Below the pieces are notes generated by a model, which was given only the letters and a program-made list of their open reading frames with translations, was not told the DNA's origin and ran no database searches. 64,000 bases of DNA. Origin: a candidate division FCPU426 bacterium. Its GTDB lineage: Bacteria > Oederibacteriota > Muellerivitia > Muellerivitales > DAHXKG01. Position 1 is the first letter of the stretch. Each line of letters starts with the position of its first letter. Where the stretch lies: positions 154,510-218,509 of the forward strand of contig DAHXKG010000005.1 of assembly GCA_027366525.1 (NCBI GenBank). The letters are read 5' to 3'. The position numbers were made by a program, and so were the translations under genes. This document shows, piece by piece, positions 11,527 to 21,268 of this stretch.

Positions 11527-12291
11527 ATGGAATCATTTGCCGCTGTTTTGTTGATTGGTCATGGAAGTAGAGATCTAGCTGCAAATCATGAATTTGAGTC
11601 TTTTGTTAAATTGTATGCATTGATTCATCCGAAATGGAATATTAAACATGCATATGTTAGTTTTGGGAATCCTAAGTTTAAAGAAATAGTCAAAATTTTT
11701 TCATTAAAGCATAATAAACTTTTAATAATTCCCGTTTTTTTATTTCCGGCATATCATGTTAAACAAGACATTCTGAAGGTTTTGCGCCAGCTTAAAAAAG
11801 AAGTACCTGAATTCGAATTTGAAATTACGTTACCAATAGGTATTATGTCGGGATGGATGCCTATAATAATTAGGAATATTCAAGAAGCTCCCTATGACAT
11901 TTTTAAAAAAAACAGAAGCCAAATCCTTTTTGTAGGCATTTCTGGAAGAGTAAATGATTTAAAATCAAAAGCGTATTTTGAAACTTTATGTCAGCAAATT
12001 ACCGATCATTTCCACTTGGAAAAATATCAAGCATGCTTTTTTGATAAGACCAAGCCATTGTTCCCCGATCAATTGGGAAAAAATATTTTTTTAAATATCA
12101 AAAATGTTCTTATCATGCCTTATTTATTATGGGACGGGAAACTGTTTCAGCAAATCCAGAGTGAAATTCAAGGTTTTATCAAGGAGCAACCGCATATCAC
12201 CGTTTATACACTCCCTTGCCTCAGCAAGTATTCTGGATTATTTCAAATGATGGATAATTATCTTCATCAAGATATAAACGAAATAAATTGA
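11527..12291 (+). CDS. CbiX/SirB-like chelatase with two modules, the second degenerate
   Basis: Probable sirohydrochlorin chelatase (iron or cobalt insertion). 254 residues. Module 1 (about 1-125) has both family histidines: LLIGHGSRD near the N terminus and FPAYHVKQDI. Module 2 (about 135-250) repeats the fold pattern (SQILFVGISGRVND, then VLIMPYLLWDGKLFQQI) but both histidines are gone. Two-module chelatases are known (CbiXL, CbiK); here only the first half looks catalytic. Siroheme would fit the sulfate assimilation genes at the far end of the window. It lies between purF and purM, with no functional link evident. Substrate metal unknown. Confidence 0.8.
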   Translation: MESFAAVLLIGHGSRDLAANHEFESFVKLYALIHPKWNIKHAYVSFGNPKFKEIVKIFSLKHNKLLIIPVFLFPAYHVKQDILKVLRQLKKEVPEFEFEITLPIGIMSGWMPIIIRNIQEAPYDIFKKNRSQILFVGISGRVNDLKSKAYFETLCQQITDHFHLEKYQACFFDKTKPLFPDQLGKNIFLNIKNVLIMPYLLWDGKLFQQIQSEIQGFIKEQPHITVYTLPCLSKYSGLFQMMDNYLHQDINEIN

Positions 12292-12553: not shown

Positions 12554-13504
12554 ATGTTCAAAAAAAATAAAATTTTAGTTTTTTTTATTATTTTGGGATT
12601 TGCTCATATAAGTTTGTTAAAAGCAAACGAACTCTCGGATTTTAATTACTTATATAAACAGGGAGCTCGCTATTTTCACAAACAAAAGTGGACCCGTTCG
12701 AAAAAATATTTTTTAGCAGCAAATCAATTAATGGGAAATCAAAAAAGTGTTTTTCAATCGCTGGGGGCTTGCGAGTATCATTTGGGGAATTTTAAAAAAG
12801 CGATTCAATTTTATGAAAAAGCGTATGAGATCCATCCGGATCTATATTTAAAAAGAGTTATTGAGATATTAAAACAGAAGGTAGCTAGAATGATTTATTC
12901 TATTCACCGCTGGCAATTTCCCATATATGTTGGCGTTTTTTTGGAAAATCAATCAGTGAATTTCAATCAAAAGTATGGCAGTGTTTTAGGAATTCCAAAT
13001 AGTCCAATCAATTTTAGTATTCCCAATATTAGTTCTGCAATCGGTTGGGGAATTTCATTAACTGCGTGTAATCTTAGTAAGGGCTTGAGAAATGCTTCAT
13101 TAGAGATTAGTTATCAAGAAGAAGAACATTCAGACAAATACTTGAATTTAAGTGGGACCTCATTCAATCAAATGATCCAATTGAATTTTGAATATATTTT
13201 TTATCGCTGGAGGGTTTTATCACCATATTTTTTAATTGGCATGGCTTACAATAATAACCTTGTGCGTGGAGCATCTGAACAAGGCACTCAGAATGTTAAT
13301 GAGGTATTCCAAGGAATGGGGGGGGAATTAGGTGCAGGTTTTAAGAAGCATCTTTTTAATCGATTTGATTTAAATTTGGAAATTATGTATGAAATAATTA
13401 ATGCTTTTCAAGTCAGTACTGCACCCACTGGTTCAGTTGGAATTAGTCCAACATTGCTTGAAGCCGGTTTGGAAATTAAAGCAGGAATTTTAGTTGGAAT
13501 TTAA
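12554..13504 (+). CDS. Exported TPR protein with a predicted outer-membrane barrel domain
   Basis: 316 residues, function not recognised. A signal peptide is evident (charged MFKKNK, hydrophobic core to about residue 20, cleavage near LKANE). Residues ~28-110 contain two to three TPR-like helical pairs (YKQGARYFHKQKWTRSKKYF; LGNFKKAIQFYEKAYEIHP). From about 120 to the end are alternating amphipathic strands rich in aromatic residues and glycine, ending in a barrel-like ILVGI. A porin-like protein with a periplasmic TPR domain is the best description. The gap before it (262 bases) is described under findings. Confidence 0.6.
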   Translation: MFKKNKILVFFIILGFAHISLLKANELSDFNYLYKQGARYFHKQKWTRSKKYFLAANQLMGNQKSVFQSLGACEYHLGNFKKAIQFYEKAYEIHPDLYLKRVIEILKQKVARMIYSIHRWQFPIYVGVFLENQSVNFNQKYGSVLGIPNSPINFSIPNISSAIGWGISLTACNLSKGLRNASLEISYQEEEHSDKYLNLSGTSFNQMIQLNFEYIFYRWRVLSPYFLIGMAYNNNLVRGASEQGTQNVNEVFQGMGGELGAGFKKHLFNRFDLNLEIMYEIINAFQVSTAPTGSVGISPTLLEAGLEIKAGILVGI

Positions 13505-14681: not shown

Positions 14682-16763
14682 GTGAATGAACAGAACGCTT
14701 CAATATCAGGCTGGAAGTTGGCTATTGAGCGAGCACCATTGTTTTTATCGGTTATATTGCTATTTGCTTTACCGATAATGACTCAATTAAAAGATGCCAA
14801 TCCAATATACATAAAAAATATTTTAACAAATATTTTAATTCCATTGATCATTGAATTTTGGATTATCAATATAGCAATTTCTAAAAAGCTGATTTTTATT
14901 CGAACTCCGACGTTAATATGGATAGGACTTTGGCTGGGATGGAGTATTTTGAGTAATACGGTTTCGCCTTATCCACAGGTGGCATGGCATAATTTTATTG
15001 AATTTTTAAATCAGCCATTATGGTATTTAGGTTTAATTGCAACGTGTTTGGAATTATGGAAATATGAAAATTTATTAATAACTTTTTTAGTTTCGTCAAT
15101 ATGGACGGCAGTTTGGGCCATAGTCCAATTCATGGGCATTTTGAAGGATCCATGGACAGTTATTGTAAAAAATGAATTTAATGGAAGAGTGGTTGCTGGA
15201 TTAGGAAATCCTGATTTTTTGGCAGCTTATTTATTATTATCGTGGCCATTTCTCATGCACTTTTTTTTCCGCGAGTCCAATAAGATTTTAAAGATGCTTC
15301 TTTTTTTGCTTATTATTATTTTTTTTATGGCGGAAATAGACACGCAAAGCAAGGCGGGATATTTAGGTGTATGGTGTGAATTAATTGTCTATTTTTTGTT
15401 TATGATTTTCAAAGATCGAAGTCATTTTAAAAAAATAAAGTGGATATTAATGATTGCCGCAATACTCGGATTGATGACTTTTATATCCCCTATTCGCCGT
15501 CGATTGTTGAGATTAGATAATGGCTCTAGTTCATCAGTGTCATTTCGTAAGTTAGTGTGGACTGGAACAGTAAAAATGATTTCGAAGAGACCAATATTGG
15601 GATGGGGGAGCGGCACATTCAAAACAGGCTTCCCTCAATTTTGTCCACAGGCACTTATGATGCATCAAACACAATACAGTTATGAAGTTAATCATGCTCA
15701 TAATTTTATACTCGAATGGGTTGCAGAAACAGGATGGATCGGGTTGCTTTTCCTTATCGGTATTATTAGTACCATTTTCTATCAGTGGTGGAAGTTATAT
15801 TCAGGTAATTATATACCTGTTAGTTTTGCTGCAGCGGCATTCGCCGTATTAATCGGTATTGGTGTAGATAATCTGTTTGATATGAATAGTTTTTTGCCTT
15901 CAACATATGTTCCAATAATTTTCATATCTGCTCTTCCGGTAGGGCTGTCGCAACGATTTTATTCTTTACCAAAATTTTGGATAAAAAAAACAGAAATAAA
16001 TCTATCCAAGGTAAAGGTTTTACTTTGGGTTATTGTAATTGTTGGAGGAATATGGATTCTTAAGAATACTCAAGCGGGATTTCAAAAAATGGAAGCCAAC
16101 CGCTTTTTGAAACGGGCCATAATTTTTTCTAGAAAATGTGAATGGAATCATGCCATTCAGGAATATCATGAGGCAATTAAACTAAACCCTCACAATTTGG
16201 AAGACATGTATTTTTTAGGCTCGGCTTATTATGATCGAAATAAATTGGGTGATAATCATAAAGCATATTTTTGGTTTGAAAACGTGATTAAAATTAATCC
16301 AAATTATCTTTTAATCCATTATAAGCTTTCTCGGCTTTTCCATCGATTAAACCAAAAAAATGCAGCATTGATTCAGATGCAAAAAGCAGTTGCCTTAAAT
16401 CCTAAAATAGTTTTTAAATTAAAAAAATTCAAATTGGCGAATTTATATGCGGAAAAAGATCATTTTAAAAAATCATTTGCTTTATTTCAAAATTTACAGA
16501 AAGATTACCCAAATTGTTTTCCAATATTATTGAATTATGGAAATGTTCTTTTCCGATTGGGCGATTTAGTTCATGCATTACATGATTATCGCCAAGCTTT
16601 AAAGGTCGATTCGAATTCATTGTCGGCGAGTCTTGATTTTGGGTATGCGGCATATCGGTTACATGATCATGCAGCGTTAAGTTGGATTGAACAAAAAATT
16701 AAACTTCAATTTAATAATCAAAATGAGGTTAAAGTGTTTTTAAATTATGTCCAAAAAAAATAA
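14682..16763 (+). CDS. O-antigen ligase/polymerase-like membrane protein with C-terminal TPRs
   Basis: 693 residues. About ten hydrophobic segments span residues ~15-440, with a Wzy_C/WaaL-type periplasmic loop that contains GWGSGTFKTGFP and VNHAHNFILEWVAETG (the conserved histidine region). After a further membrane helix (~445-465), residues ~480-690 are TPR repeats (for example YHEAIKLNPHNLEDMYFLGSAYYDR). This layout is common in ligases or polymerases acting on undecaprenyl-linked glycans, but the substrate is unknown. GTG start; a small hairpin and a two-codon ORF precede it. The last 17 bases overlap purN. Confidence 0.82.
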   Translation: MNEQNASISGWKLAIERAPLFLSVILLFALPIMTQLKDANPIYIKNILTNILIPLIIEFWIINIAISKKLIFIRTPTLIWIGLWLGWSILSNTVSPYPQVAWHNFIEFLNQPLWYLGLIATCLELWKYENLLITFLVSSIWTAVWAIVQFMGILKDPWTVIVKNEFNGRVVAGLGNPDFLAAYLLLSWPFLMHFFFRESNKILKMLLFLLIIIFFMAEIDTQSKAGYLGVWCELIVYFLFMIFKDRSHFKKIKWILMIAAILGLMTFISPIRRRLLRLDNGSSSSVSFRKLVWTGTVKMISKRPILGWGSGTFKTGFPQFCPQALMMHQTQYSYEVNHAHNFILEWVAETGWIGLLFLIGIISTIFYQWWKLYSGNYIPVSFAAAAFAVLIGIGVDNLFDMNSFLPSTYVPIIFISALPVGLSQRFYSLPKFWIKKTEINLSKVKVLLWVIVIVGGIWILKNTQAGFQKMEANRFLKRAIIFSRKCEWNHAIQEYHEAIKLNPHNLEDMYFLGSAYYDRNKLGDNHKAYFWFENVIKINPNYLLIHYKLSRLFHRLNQKNAALIQMQKAVALNPKIVFKLKKFKLANLYAEKDHFKKSFALFQNLQKDYPNCFPILLNYGNVLFRLGDLVHALHDYRQALKVDSNSLSASLDFGYAAYRLHDHAALSWIEQKIKLQFNNQNEVKVFLNYVQKK

Positions 16764-17349
16764 AAATATTGCGGTTTTTGCATCAGGCAATGGATCCAAT
16801 CTTCAAGCATTAATTGATGCGGAAAAAAGGGAAATCTTCTCTGGAAAAATTCAATTGATATTCTCAAATATTGCAACCGCTTATGCCTTAGAACGTGCTA
16901 AGCTTCACCATATCAAATCGTTTTGTTTGGAATCGAAGACTTTTCAGGGGACGCCAAATCAATTTGATGCTGAAATTTTAGCTGTTTGTGTGAAAGAAAA
17001 AATCGACTTAATTTGCTTAGCTGGATATCTTAAAATTTTAAGCTCGGTATTAATTAATCAGTATTTTAAAAGAATTATTAATATTCATCCGTCTTTGTTG
17101 CCTAAGTATGGGGGCAAAGGTTTTTATGGACATTTTGTACATGAAGCTGTTATAAAAAATCACGAAAAAGAATCAGGCGCAACAGTGCATTTTGTGACAC
17201 TTGAACCAGATCAAGGTTCAATTATTCTTCAAAAAAAAATTGCGGTAGATGTTAATGATACGCCGGAAATATTAGCTCAAAGAGTGTTAAAGATCGAACA
17301 TGAAATTTATCCTGAGGCCGTTAGACTTTTTTGTGATGATGAGGTGTAG
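16747..17349 (+). CDS. purN: Phosphoribosylglycinamide formyltransferase PurN
   Basis: Formylates GAR using 10-formyltetrahydrofolate. 200 residues. Landmarks: VFASGNGSNLQALIDA at the N terminus, the catalytic Asn/His in INIHPSLLPKYGG, the folate loop GYLKILSSVLI, and the catalytic aspartate in EPDQGSII. The start lies inside the end of the upstream membrane protein gene, so translation of the two is probably coupled although they are functionally unrelated. Confidence 0.95.
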   Translation: MSKKNKNIAVFASGNGSNLQALIDAEKREIFSGKIQLIFSNIATAYALERAKLHHIKSFCLESKTFQGTPNQFDAEILAVCVKEKIDLICLAGYLKILSSVLINQYFKRIINIHPSLLPKYGGKGFYGHFVHEAVIKNHEKESGATVHFVTLEPDQGSIILQKKIAVDVNDTPEILAQRVLKIEHEIYPEAVRLFCDDEV

Positions 17350-17381: not shown

Positions 17382-18953
17382 TTGGAAAGTAAAAATATTC
17401 GAATCAAGCGTGCGCTATTAAGTGTTTCAGATAAAACAGGATTAATTGAACTGGCTAAAGGATTAATTCGATGGAATGTTGAGTTGATTTCAACAGGTGG
17501 AACAGAGCAACATTTGGTTCAAGCTGGCATAAAACCTAGAAATATTTCTGAAGTAACAGATTTCCCTGAAATTTTAGATGGACGTGTAAAAACACTACAT
17601 CCCATGATTCATGGCGGAATTTTGGCCATACGTGATTCAAACAAACACATGGAAACAATTCAAAAAGAAGGGATACCACTGATTGATTTGGTGTGCATTA
17701 ATCTTTATCCTTTTGGTGATATTATTCAAAATCCGCAATGTTCTCTTAATGAGGCCATTGAAAATATTGATATCGGTGGGCCTTCATTGTTGCGATCAGC
17801 ATCAAAAAATTTTCGTGATGTTGTGGTTTTAAGTTCTCCCCAAGATTATGCTGCCCTTTTAAAAGAAATGGATGAAAATCAAGGAGCAGTTTCATTATCA
17901 TTACGTGAAAAATTTGCAGTTAAATCGTTTAGTTATACCGCGCAATATGATTCAACAATATTTAATTTTTTTAATCAAAAATTTCAAAATGAGATTACTC
18001 CAACATATTTTGTTTTTTCTGGTAAAAAAATTCAAGAAATGCGATATGGCGAAAATCCACATCAAAAAGCTGCATTTTATGCAGAGCCGGCATCACAAGA
18101 ACCAAGTTTAACTCATATGATTCAACACCAAGGCAAGGAATTGTCATATAACAATATTGTTGATTCGGATTCAGCACTTAATTTGATTTCTGAATTTACT
18201 TCTCCTGCTTTATGTATTGTTAAACATACGAACCCATGTGGAGTTGCAATAGATGCCAATATCCACGATGCTTTTCTTAAAGCATGGTCAACGGATCCTA
18301 TTTCTGCTTTTGGTGGAATTATTGCCGTAAATCAATTGGTTTCTGCAAATCTGGCAGAGTTAATATTGGAAAAATTAAAGTTCTTTGAAATTATTTTGGC
18401 ACCTGCCTATGAAAAAGAAGCTTTGATTTTTTTTTCAAAACGACCTCAGTTAAGAGTGCTAGAAATTCCCTCCTCCAAACAGTCAATTAATGGTTTCGTG
18501 TATGATTTTAAAAAAGTCAATGGGGGATTTTTAGTTCAAACCAAAGATAGTTTAAATGAATCAATAGAAAGTTATCAAGTAGTAACTAAGACAGTTCCCA
18601 CTAAAATTATTTTTGAACAAATGATTTTTGGATGGAAAGTAGTTAAACATATTAAATCAAATGGAATTATTTTAGTTAAAGACGGCAAAAGTGTTGGAAT
18701 TGGCGTGGGTCAAACTAGTCGAGTAGGCTCTTTAGAAATTGCAATACGGCAGGCTGAAATGCGAGCAAATGAATCTGTAATGGCGTCAGATGCTTTATTA
18801 CCATTTAGTGATAGCGTGGAACTTTGTAAAAAGCACGGCATTTGCGGTATTATTCAAACAGGTGGGAGTGTCAGAGATAAAGAGGTCATTGAATCTGCAG
18901 ATGAAGCAGGTATTCCGATGGTGTTTACTGGGATTAGACATTTTAAGCATTAA
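17382..18953 (+). CDS. purH: Bifunctional AICAR transformylase / IMP cyclohydrolase PurH
   Basis: Last two steps to IMP. 523 residues. N-terminal cyclohydrolase domain (about 1-195) with LISTGGTEQHL and DGRVKTLHPMIHGGIL; C-terminal transformylase (about 200-523) with YGENPHQKAAFY and the catalytic KHTNPCG, ending in the usual FTGIRHFKH. TTG start after AGAGGA. Follows purN by 32 bases. Confidence 0.97.
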   Translation: MESKNIRIKRALLSVSDKTGLIELAKGLIRWNVELISTGGTEQHLVQAGIKPRNISEVTDFPEILDGRVKTLHPMIHGGILAIRDSNKHMETIQKEGIPLIDLVCINLYPFGDIIQNPQCSLNEAIENIDIGGPSLLRSASKNFRDVVVLSSPQDYAALLKEMDENQGAVSLSLREKFAVKSFSYTAQYDSTIFNFFNQKFQNEITPTYFVFSGKKIQEMRYGENPHQKAAFYAEPASQEPSLTHMIQHQGKELSYNNIVDSDSALNLISEFTSPALCIVKHTNPCGVAIDANIHDAFLKAWSTDPISAFGGIIAVNQLVSANLAELILEKLKFFEIILAPAYEKEALIFFSKRPQLRVLEIPSSKQSINGFVYDFKKVNGGFLVQTKDSLNESIESYQVVTKTVPTKIIFEQMIFGWKVVKHIKSNGIILVKDGKSVGIGVGQTSRVGSLEIAIRQAEMRANESVMASDALLPFSDSVELCKKHGICGIIQTGGSVRDKEVIESADEAGIPMVFTGIRHFKH

Positions 18954-18999
18954 TGGATAAAATTCGATAAAGTCTTTAATTCAAATCAGGGAAATTTCA

Positions 19000-20550
19000 A
19001 TGGAAATACTAGGTGCAATCATCGGAAGTATTATTGTTGTTGCTGTAATCAGTTTTGGATTATATAAAATTTTTTTAAAAAATAGAAAATTCATGATTAT
19101 GGCCATGGTACTTGAGTGTATTTTATCCATAATTCTCATATTTAATTGGAGTATGATTTTTCCGCTTCAACTTTTAATGATTTTAATAATATTTACAATT
19201 ATGATATCTTTCTTGTGTATTTTTATTTTCCCGGTTAAATCGCGAGTAAGTCAAAACCTCAATAAAGCTAATTTCCCATTGAAAATTTTAATAATTGGAA
19301 ATGGTGGGAGAGAGCATGCCATTGCTCATGGTTTGTTGCAAACAAGAAAAAATTTGCAATTGATTTTTGCACCTGGAAATGGAGGACTGGAAAGAATTTC
19401 TACTAAATGTATTCCCGTAGAATTAACGGATGTCTCGAAGATGGTTCAAATTGCAACAAGTGTTAATCCAGATTTAGTTATTGTTGGGCCTGAAATACCA
19501 TTATCTTTAGGGTTGGTCGATGAATTAAATAAAAAAGGCATTAACGCGTTTGGCCCTAATCAAAAGGCGGCACAGCTGGAATCGAGTAAAAAATTTACAA
19601 AACAGTTATTATTAGAAAACAATATACCGACAGCGTTTGCGGAATCCTTTAGTGCAACGACCAAGGCCCTCGATTATGTCAAGATTCAAAGATTTCCGAT
19701 TGTTGTTAAAGCAGATGGATTGGCAGCTGGAAAAGGTGTCACAATCTGTCTGAATTTTGAAGAGGCCTACCAAGCGATAAAGATGGCCTTGGATGAGAAT
19801 ATTTTTCATCAACCGCAACCAACTGTTTTAATAGAAGAATATTTGACAGGAGAAGAAGCATCATTGTTACTGTTTTGTTCCAATGATCAAGTTATTCCCA
19901 TGGTATCGGCAAAAGATCACAAAAGAATTTTTGATGGCGATCAAGGGCCGAATACTGGTGGAATGGGGGCTTATTCTCCAAGTACGGCAATGTCAGAGGC
20001 GATGGTCTTGAAAGTTATCCAGGAAATTATTCAACCCACAATTCAAGCTTTACAAAAGCGTGATATTGTTTTTAAAGGTGTTTTATATGCTGGATTAATG
20101 ATTACAGAGCAAGGTCCTAAGTTGATTGAATATAATTGTCGGTTTGGAGATCCAGAGACCCAGGTGATTTTGCCCCGATTGGAAACAGACTTATTAGAAG
20201 TACTTTATTCAGTAACCAACGAAACATTGAAAAATCAGGTATTAACTTGGAATCCAAAAGCTTCGGCATGTGTTGTTCTAGCCTCAAAAGGTTATCCCGG
20301 GGCTTATCAAATTGGGAAACAAATTCAAGGGATTGAAAAATTAAGCACTTTAGAAGATATTTATACCTTTCATGCCGGAACTCAATTTCGGAATGGCGAG
20401 TTTTGGACTTCCGGTGGTAGGGTTTTAAACATAGTAGGACTTGCTGATAATTTGCCATCTGCTTTGAAAAAAACTTATGATGCAGTTAATCAAATCCATT
20501 TTGATGGAATGCAATATAGAAAAGATATTGGTCAAACAGGAAGGATTTAA
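19000..20550 (+). CDS. purD: Phosphoribosylamine-glycine ligase PurD with N-terminal membrane segment
   Basis: Makes GAR from phosphoribosylamine, glycine and ATP. Residues ~94-516 are a complete PurD: KILIIGNGGREHAIAHGL, the ATP-grasp region with FPIVVKADGLAAGKGVTI, DHKRIFDGDQGPNTGGMGAYSP and the C-terminal SGGRVLNIVGLA. Residues 1-93 are not part of any PurD I know: they form three hydrophobic helices (about 4-26, 32-52, 56-78) and a short polar linker. The frame is continuous with no stop. A TTG at 19279 could start a normal-length PurD, but it has no visible ribosome site. As written this would be a membrane-anchored PurD. Confidence 0.88.
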   Translation: MEILGAIIGSIIVVAVISFGLYKIFLKNRKFMIMAMVLECILSIILIFNWSMIFPLQLLMILIIFTIMISFLCIFIFPVKSRVSQNLNKANFPLKILIIGNGGREHAIAHGLLQTRKNLQLIFAPGNGGLERISTKCIPVELTDVSKMVQIATSVNPDLVIVGPEIPLSLGLVDELNKKGINAFGPNQKAAQLESSKKFTKQLLLENNIPTAFAESFSATTKALDYVKIQRFPIVVKADGLAAGKGVTICLNFEEAYQAIKMALDENIFHQPQPTVLIEEYLTGEEASLLLFCSNDQVIPMVSAKDHKRIFDGDQGPNTGGMGAYSPSTAMSEAMVLKVIQEIIQPTIQALQKRDIVFKGVLYAGLMITEQGPKLIEYNCRFGDPETQVILPRLETDLLEVLYSVTNETLKNQVLTWNPKASACVVLASKGYPGAYQIGKQIQGIEKLSTLEDIYTFHAGTQFRNGEFWTSGGRVLNIVGLADNLPSALKKTYDAVNQIHFDGMQYRKDIGQTGRI

Positions 20551-20635: not shown

Positions 20636-21268
20636 ATGAACTCTAAAACGGTAACAAATTCGAACTTATTGGAAATAATATCTGTTTTAAAAAAAGGTGG
20701 AGTTGCTATTTTCCCAACAGATACAGTGTATACAATCGGAGCGTCAATTAAACAACCGGAAGCGTTAAAAAAAATATTTAAAATTAAGGAACGTAATATA
20801 ACGCAGTCATTGCCACTTTTAATTTCACGACCTGAAGTTGCGCTGGAAATTGCGGATATTCAAGAGTCCGCGATGTCTTTTTTCAAAAAAATATGGCCGA
20901 GTTGTTGGACATTTATTTTAAAAGCTAAAGTCCAATTAAATCCTGGCTTAGTAGGTCCAGATGGAACAGTTGCGTTGAGATGCCCCAATCATAGTGAAGC
21001 CTTAGAAATTTTGCGCAGTACAGGTGAAACTTTAGCAGTCAGCAGCGCCAATATTTCCGGAGAAAAAAGTCCAATACGATTTGAAGAGGTTGCAGAAGAA
21101 TTGATTGATCAAGTGGATATTGTTTTAGATGCAGGACCTACTTCACTAGGTGGGCAATCAGCTATTGCACGATTAACGGATCAAAAATTCGAGCTAATTC
21201 GATCGGGTTGTGTTTCAGAAGATGAGATTCAGCGTGTTCAACTTCTTTTTGAGAATCAGATAAAGTAG
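20636..21268 (+). CDS. Threonylcarbamoyl-AMP synthase (TsaC/Sua5/YrdC family)
   Basis: First enzyme of the universal tRNA t6A modification: condenses threonine, bicarbonate and ATP. 210 residues, the single-domain form. Visible family motifs are GGVAIFPTDTVYTIGAS, KIKERNITQSLPLLIS, LRCPNH and AVSSANISGEKSP. The ATG is preceded by GAAGAG. It leads a small three-gene run with a tyrosine phosphatase and rpiB, a neighbourhood often seen in Gram-positive-like gene orders. Confidence 0.92.
   Translation: MNSKTVTNSNLLEIISVLKKGGVAIFPTDTVYTIGASIKQPEALKKIFKIKERNITQSLPLLISRPEVALEIADIQESAMSFFKKIWPSCWTFILKAKVQLNPGLVGPDGTVALRCPNHSEALEILRSTGETLAVSSANISGEKSPIRFEEVAEELIDQVDIVLDAGPTSLGGQSAIARLTDQKFELIRSGCVSEDEIQRVQLLFENQIK

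Follow-up and report, generated by a model that had tools for sequence, protein, structure and literature searches.

In a bacterium of candidate division FCPU426, a gene encoding PurD (phosphoribosylamine-glycine ligase) is preceded, in the same reading frame, by a segment predicted to cross the membrane three times, and I consider the chances about even that this is a recent in-frame fusion giving a membrane-anchored PurD. The open frame, 516 codons on the forward strand of the window (the whole stretch of 64,000 nucleotides analyzed here), extends from ATG 19000 to a stop ending at 20550, with no stop in between. It has been seen in one uncultivated bacterium, in a single draft assembly. An earlier note on this DNA had described three strongly hydrophobic helices leading without a stop into a complete PurD, and the helices, the unbroken frame and the completeness of the enzyme are all borne out by the results given below. 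The features are collected in Table 1.

Table 1. Features of the fused purD gene and its surroundings (coordinates within the window).
Feature	Coordinates	Strand	Remarks
purN (presumed)	16747..17349	+	same position in relatives, 44-61% identity
purH, upstream operon neighbor	17382..18953	+	Pfam AICARFT_IMPCHas and MGS; neighbor kept in relatives
Shine-Dalgarno-like AGGGA before ATG 19000	18988..18992	+	-5.1 kcal/mol with 16S tail
N-terminal extension, 93 codons	19000..19278	+	three predicted membrane helices and short basic linker
PurD, complete	19279..20550	+	TTG 19279 at ancestral start position
sua5/ywlC-like gene (presumed), downstream	20636..21268	+	conserved neighbor

The PurD portion of the protein is intact. 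Residues 94-512 match positions 1-421 (of 425) of the TIGR00877 purD model with 511.5 bits, as compared to a cut-off of 288, the three domains PF02844, PF01071, and PF02843 (N, ATP-grasp, and C, respectively) all score above their cut-offs, and the alignment shows the PurD motifs GGREHA, KADGLAAGKGV, GPNTGGMGAYSP, and RFGDPETQ. The closest solved structures are likewise PurDs (e.g., 2YRW, 2XCL, and 1GSO), with matches that begin at residue 94 or 95. The 2.02 Mb draft genome yielded no second purD. Since the fused copy is the genome's only purD and lies within the pur gene cluster, it is presumably functional, with GAR synthetase activity predicted from its sequence.

The cluster consists of purB (5508), purQ (7089), purL (7797), purF (10016), a CbiX-like gene, a gene encoding a TPR protein, purM (13552), an O-antigen-ligase/TPR gene (14682), purN, purH, the fused purD, and sua5-, ywlE-, and rpiB-like genes. 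Several of these gene names are taken from established knowledge, as are the identity of purN and the placement of the gene downstream from purD in the sua5/ywlC family. Five same-order genomes inspected more widely show the same order of pur genes and of sua5-ywlE-rpiB, with differing extra genes. The extra genes here are, between purF and purM, the CbiX-like gene (11527-12291) and the TPR protein (12554-13504), with a weak match to an outer-membrane barrel, and, between purM and purN, a protein with an O-antigen-ligase domain (Wzy_C) and a TPR tail (14682-16763). A relative of the last, at 36-40% identity, occupies the same slot in three other genomes (G003, G005, and G006).

The extension contains three hydrophobic 19-residue windows, at residues 3-21, 31-49, and 58-76, with mean hydropathies of 2.67, 2.42, and 3.15 (the threshold for a membrane window being 1.6). 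A structure model places helices at 2-26, 31-50, and 55-76, with modest confidence (pLDDT about 57-68), followed by a stretch (73-91) with pLDDT below 50 and then by the PurD core, where pLDDT mostly exceeds 90. Positive charges are concentrated in the first loop (KNRK) and behind the third helix (KSR), both on the same side. The extension is thus predicted, from sequence and model, to be an integral membrane segment, with spanning helices and positive-inside charges, and because of where those charges lie, the positive-inside rule would put PurD in the cytoplasm and the N terminus outside.

The earlier note had proposed looking for the same extension in relatives, and it is absent from the seven same-order genomes, from 58 other genomes, and from 46 loci further afield. 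The same-order genomes are the nearest in a comparison set that does not represent the same family or genus. Their PurDs begin exactly at the position of TTG 19279, and the gap between purH and purD is 17-129 nt in all seven. Elsewhere in the phylum, full-length PurD frames are 425-476 amino acids in length, too short to accommodate the extension, except for G017 (536 amino acids) and G020 (546 amino acids), whose upstream parts are charged spurs rich in glycine, arginine, and proline, rather than membrane segments. Loci were inspected for plus-strand matches; for genomes with matches on the minus strand, open-frame lengths and purH-purD gaps were used instead. No homologue of the extension was detectable in the 58 other genomes, the weak matches (the best at E = 0.0035, with two stops) being judged a chance resemblance between hydrophobic helices. 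Nor was a membrane segment found before PurD at the 46 loci that could be reached through short peptides shared with the query in a collection of 84,980 species. Viral contigs gave no relatives of the extension, and no curated family or structure covers it (Pfam YqhR at E = 0.33, NCBIfam Myrrcad below its cut-off, PDB without a match). Literature searches turned up no paper describing a PurD that carries transmembrane segments.

It may be that a soluble PurD is made from the ancestral start, TTG 19279, and that the DNA upstream is an AT-rich spacer or leader open by chance, or else is translated only into a minor long form. I find this rather doubtful. Chance would seldom produce an open frame of 106 codons that also holds three membrane windows: under a first-order Markov model based on the region's own dinucleotides, a stretch of this length was open in 5 of 10,000 trials (5e-4), and among the open stretches 0.36% (0.0036) were equally hydrophobic by mean and about 2.5% had three or more membrane windows, values that should not be taken at face value, since the finding was selected from among many scanned sequences and genes. 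No membrane windows occur in the remaining five frames of this DNA. Both the open frame and its hydrophobicity are therefore unlikely to have arisen by chance. (That none of 1160 windows in gaps was open was discarded as evidence, because gaps are defined by their lack of long frames.) The composition of the extension, on the other hand, supports a start at the TTG. Its codon score, by statistics drawn from 464 kb of the genome, is 0.075, as compared to a coding mean of 0.30 and a coding first percentile of 0.085, and it falls below both the mean (0.26) and the fifth percentile (0.10) of hydrophobic coding pieces. Its G+C content is 27% (vs. 38% in the genome sample) and flat across codon positions (0.29, 0.25, and 0.27). 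Such weak codon usage and flat, low G+C content are compatible with a young or foreign gene and also with non-coding DNA.

The two possible start sites differ in what precedes them. ATG 19000 is preceded by CAGGGAAATTTCA, with a calculated pairing of -5.1 kcal/mol to the 16S tail, which outranks about 90% of internal ATGs in strength, while nothing resembling a Shine-Dalgarno sequence lies upstream from TTG 19279 (-0.1 kcal/mol). Of 69 clear starts from the same 464 kb, 61% pair no more strongly than ATG 19000 does and 12% no more strongly than TTG 19279. The earlier note was therefore right in the direction of the difference but made too much of its strength, since those 12% are no better provided, and nearby purN (-0.4) and recG (+1.6) lack a ribosome site as well and in this respect favor a soluble PurD begun at the TTG. 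So does purH, which likely also starts with TTG. Promoter-like sites before 19000 are no more frequent than in shuffled sequences. In the alignment, TTG 19279 coincides exactly with the first codon of the other PurDs, a same-order relative (G003) has GTG at that position, and only 6.2% of codons are capable of serving as starts. It is very probable for these reasons that PurD once began at TTG 19279, which leaves a recent fusion or continued use of the TTG as the alternatives. A start there would, however, leave a gap of 325 nt after purH, far from the range seen in the same-order relatives.

Improbable, in my estimation, is that a small membrane protein and purD are two separate genes, with a frameshift or stop hidden by an error in sequencing or assembly: both other frames do have stops directly after the third helix (near 19250), so that the small protein would stop a little short of purD, whose ancestral start would follow, and a separate gene does lie between purH and purD elsewhere in the phylum, but none of the genomes searched yielded a free-standing relative of the small protein, a separate purD would have no ribosome site, and the neighboring genes are full-length frames without signs of frameshift. 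The separate gene just mentioned encodes a PilZ protein and is found in other families of the phylum (G009), with a similar small gene in G023. Because the PilZ gene occupies it, the purH-purD slot can evidently accommodate small genes, which suggests a link or a permissive slot. Small genes between purH and purD lie at 1139-1507 of L016 (with a PilZ domain) and at 1142-1510 of L021.

The reading I favor, a membrane-anchored PurD, supposes that this lineage gained a short membrane-protein frame between purH and purD, either newly formed or inserted, and that this frame now continues in phase into purD. That ATG 19000 is the start used, that the product enters the membrane and is active, and that it brings any benefit are inferences: the 516-residue PurD so translated would be tethered to the inner membrane through its three helices, with the N terminus outside, and a flexible linker of about 17 residues would carry the enzyme on the cytoplasmic side. 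So placed, PurD should retain its catalysis unchanged, and the effect would be one of location. The three helices, disordered linker, and largely high-confidence PurD core of the structure model support the fusion. The earlier note's proposal of a single continuous chain keeps the fused frame, the membrane segment, the PurD, and the better site at the ATG in its favor; counting against it are the exact retention of the TTG as ancestral initiator, the poor codon score, the absence of a codon-position pattern in G+C, and its occurrence in a single draft assembly, no second genome carrying the extension. Its suggestion that a small membrane protein gene was fused to purD fits best, albeit with no relatives of the extension, free-standing or otherwise, having come to light.

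Phosphoribosylamine, the product of PurF, is taken over by PurD. With PurD anchored, the inner membrane would become the site of the second step in purine synthesis, perhaps close to PurF, a suggestion I make tentatively. Kinetics in E. coli suggest that phosphoribosylamine is handed over from PurF to PurD, no stable complex having been found (reviewed in PMC10912719), and any tie between a tethered PurD and such channeling is speculation. Should a single chain indeed be produced, a central enzyme of purine synthesis would, unusually, be anchored in the membrane, and nature would have supplied a test of whether the PurF-PurD hand-over can bear tethering or even benefits by it. The old start codon would also still be recognizable within a recent fusion.

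PurD is normally a soluble enzyme of purine synthesis. The fused protein resembles known GAR synthetases (TIGR00877; 1GSO, 2XCL, 2YRW) in being a complete enzyme with conserved motifs, about 38-52% identical to the PurDs aligned, and differs from them in the 93-residue predicted membrane segment in front, the others beginning at the residue that aligns with TTG 19279. The trifunctional eukaryotic GART (GARS-AIRS-GART; 2QK4) also contains a PurD homologue within a multidomain chain, in which the PurD part comes first, but there the fusion is to soluble enzymes of the pathway, with no membrane part. The PilZ gene of G009 (and the similar gene of G023) shares with the extension its position, as an extra small gene in the same purH-purD operon slot, but the PilZ domain lies in a frame of its own, unfused.
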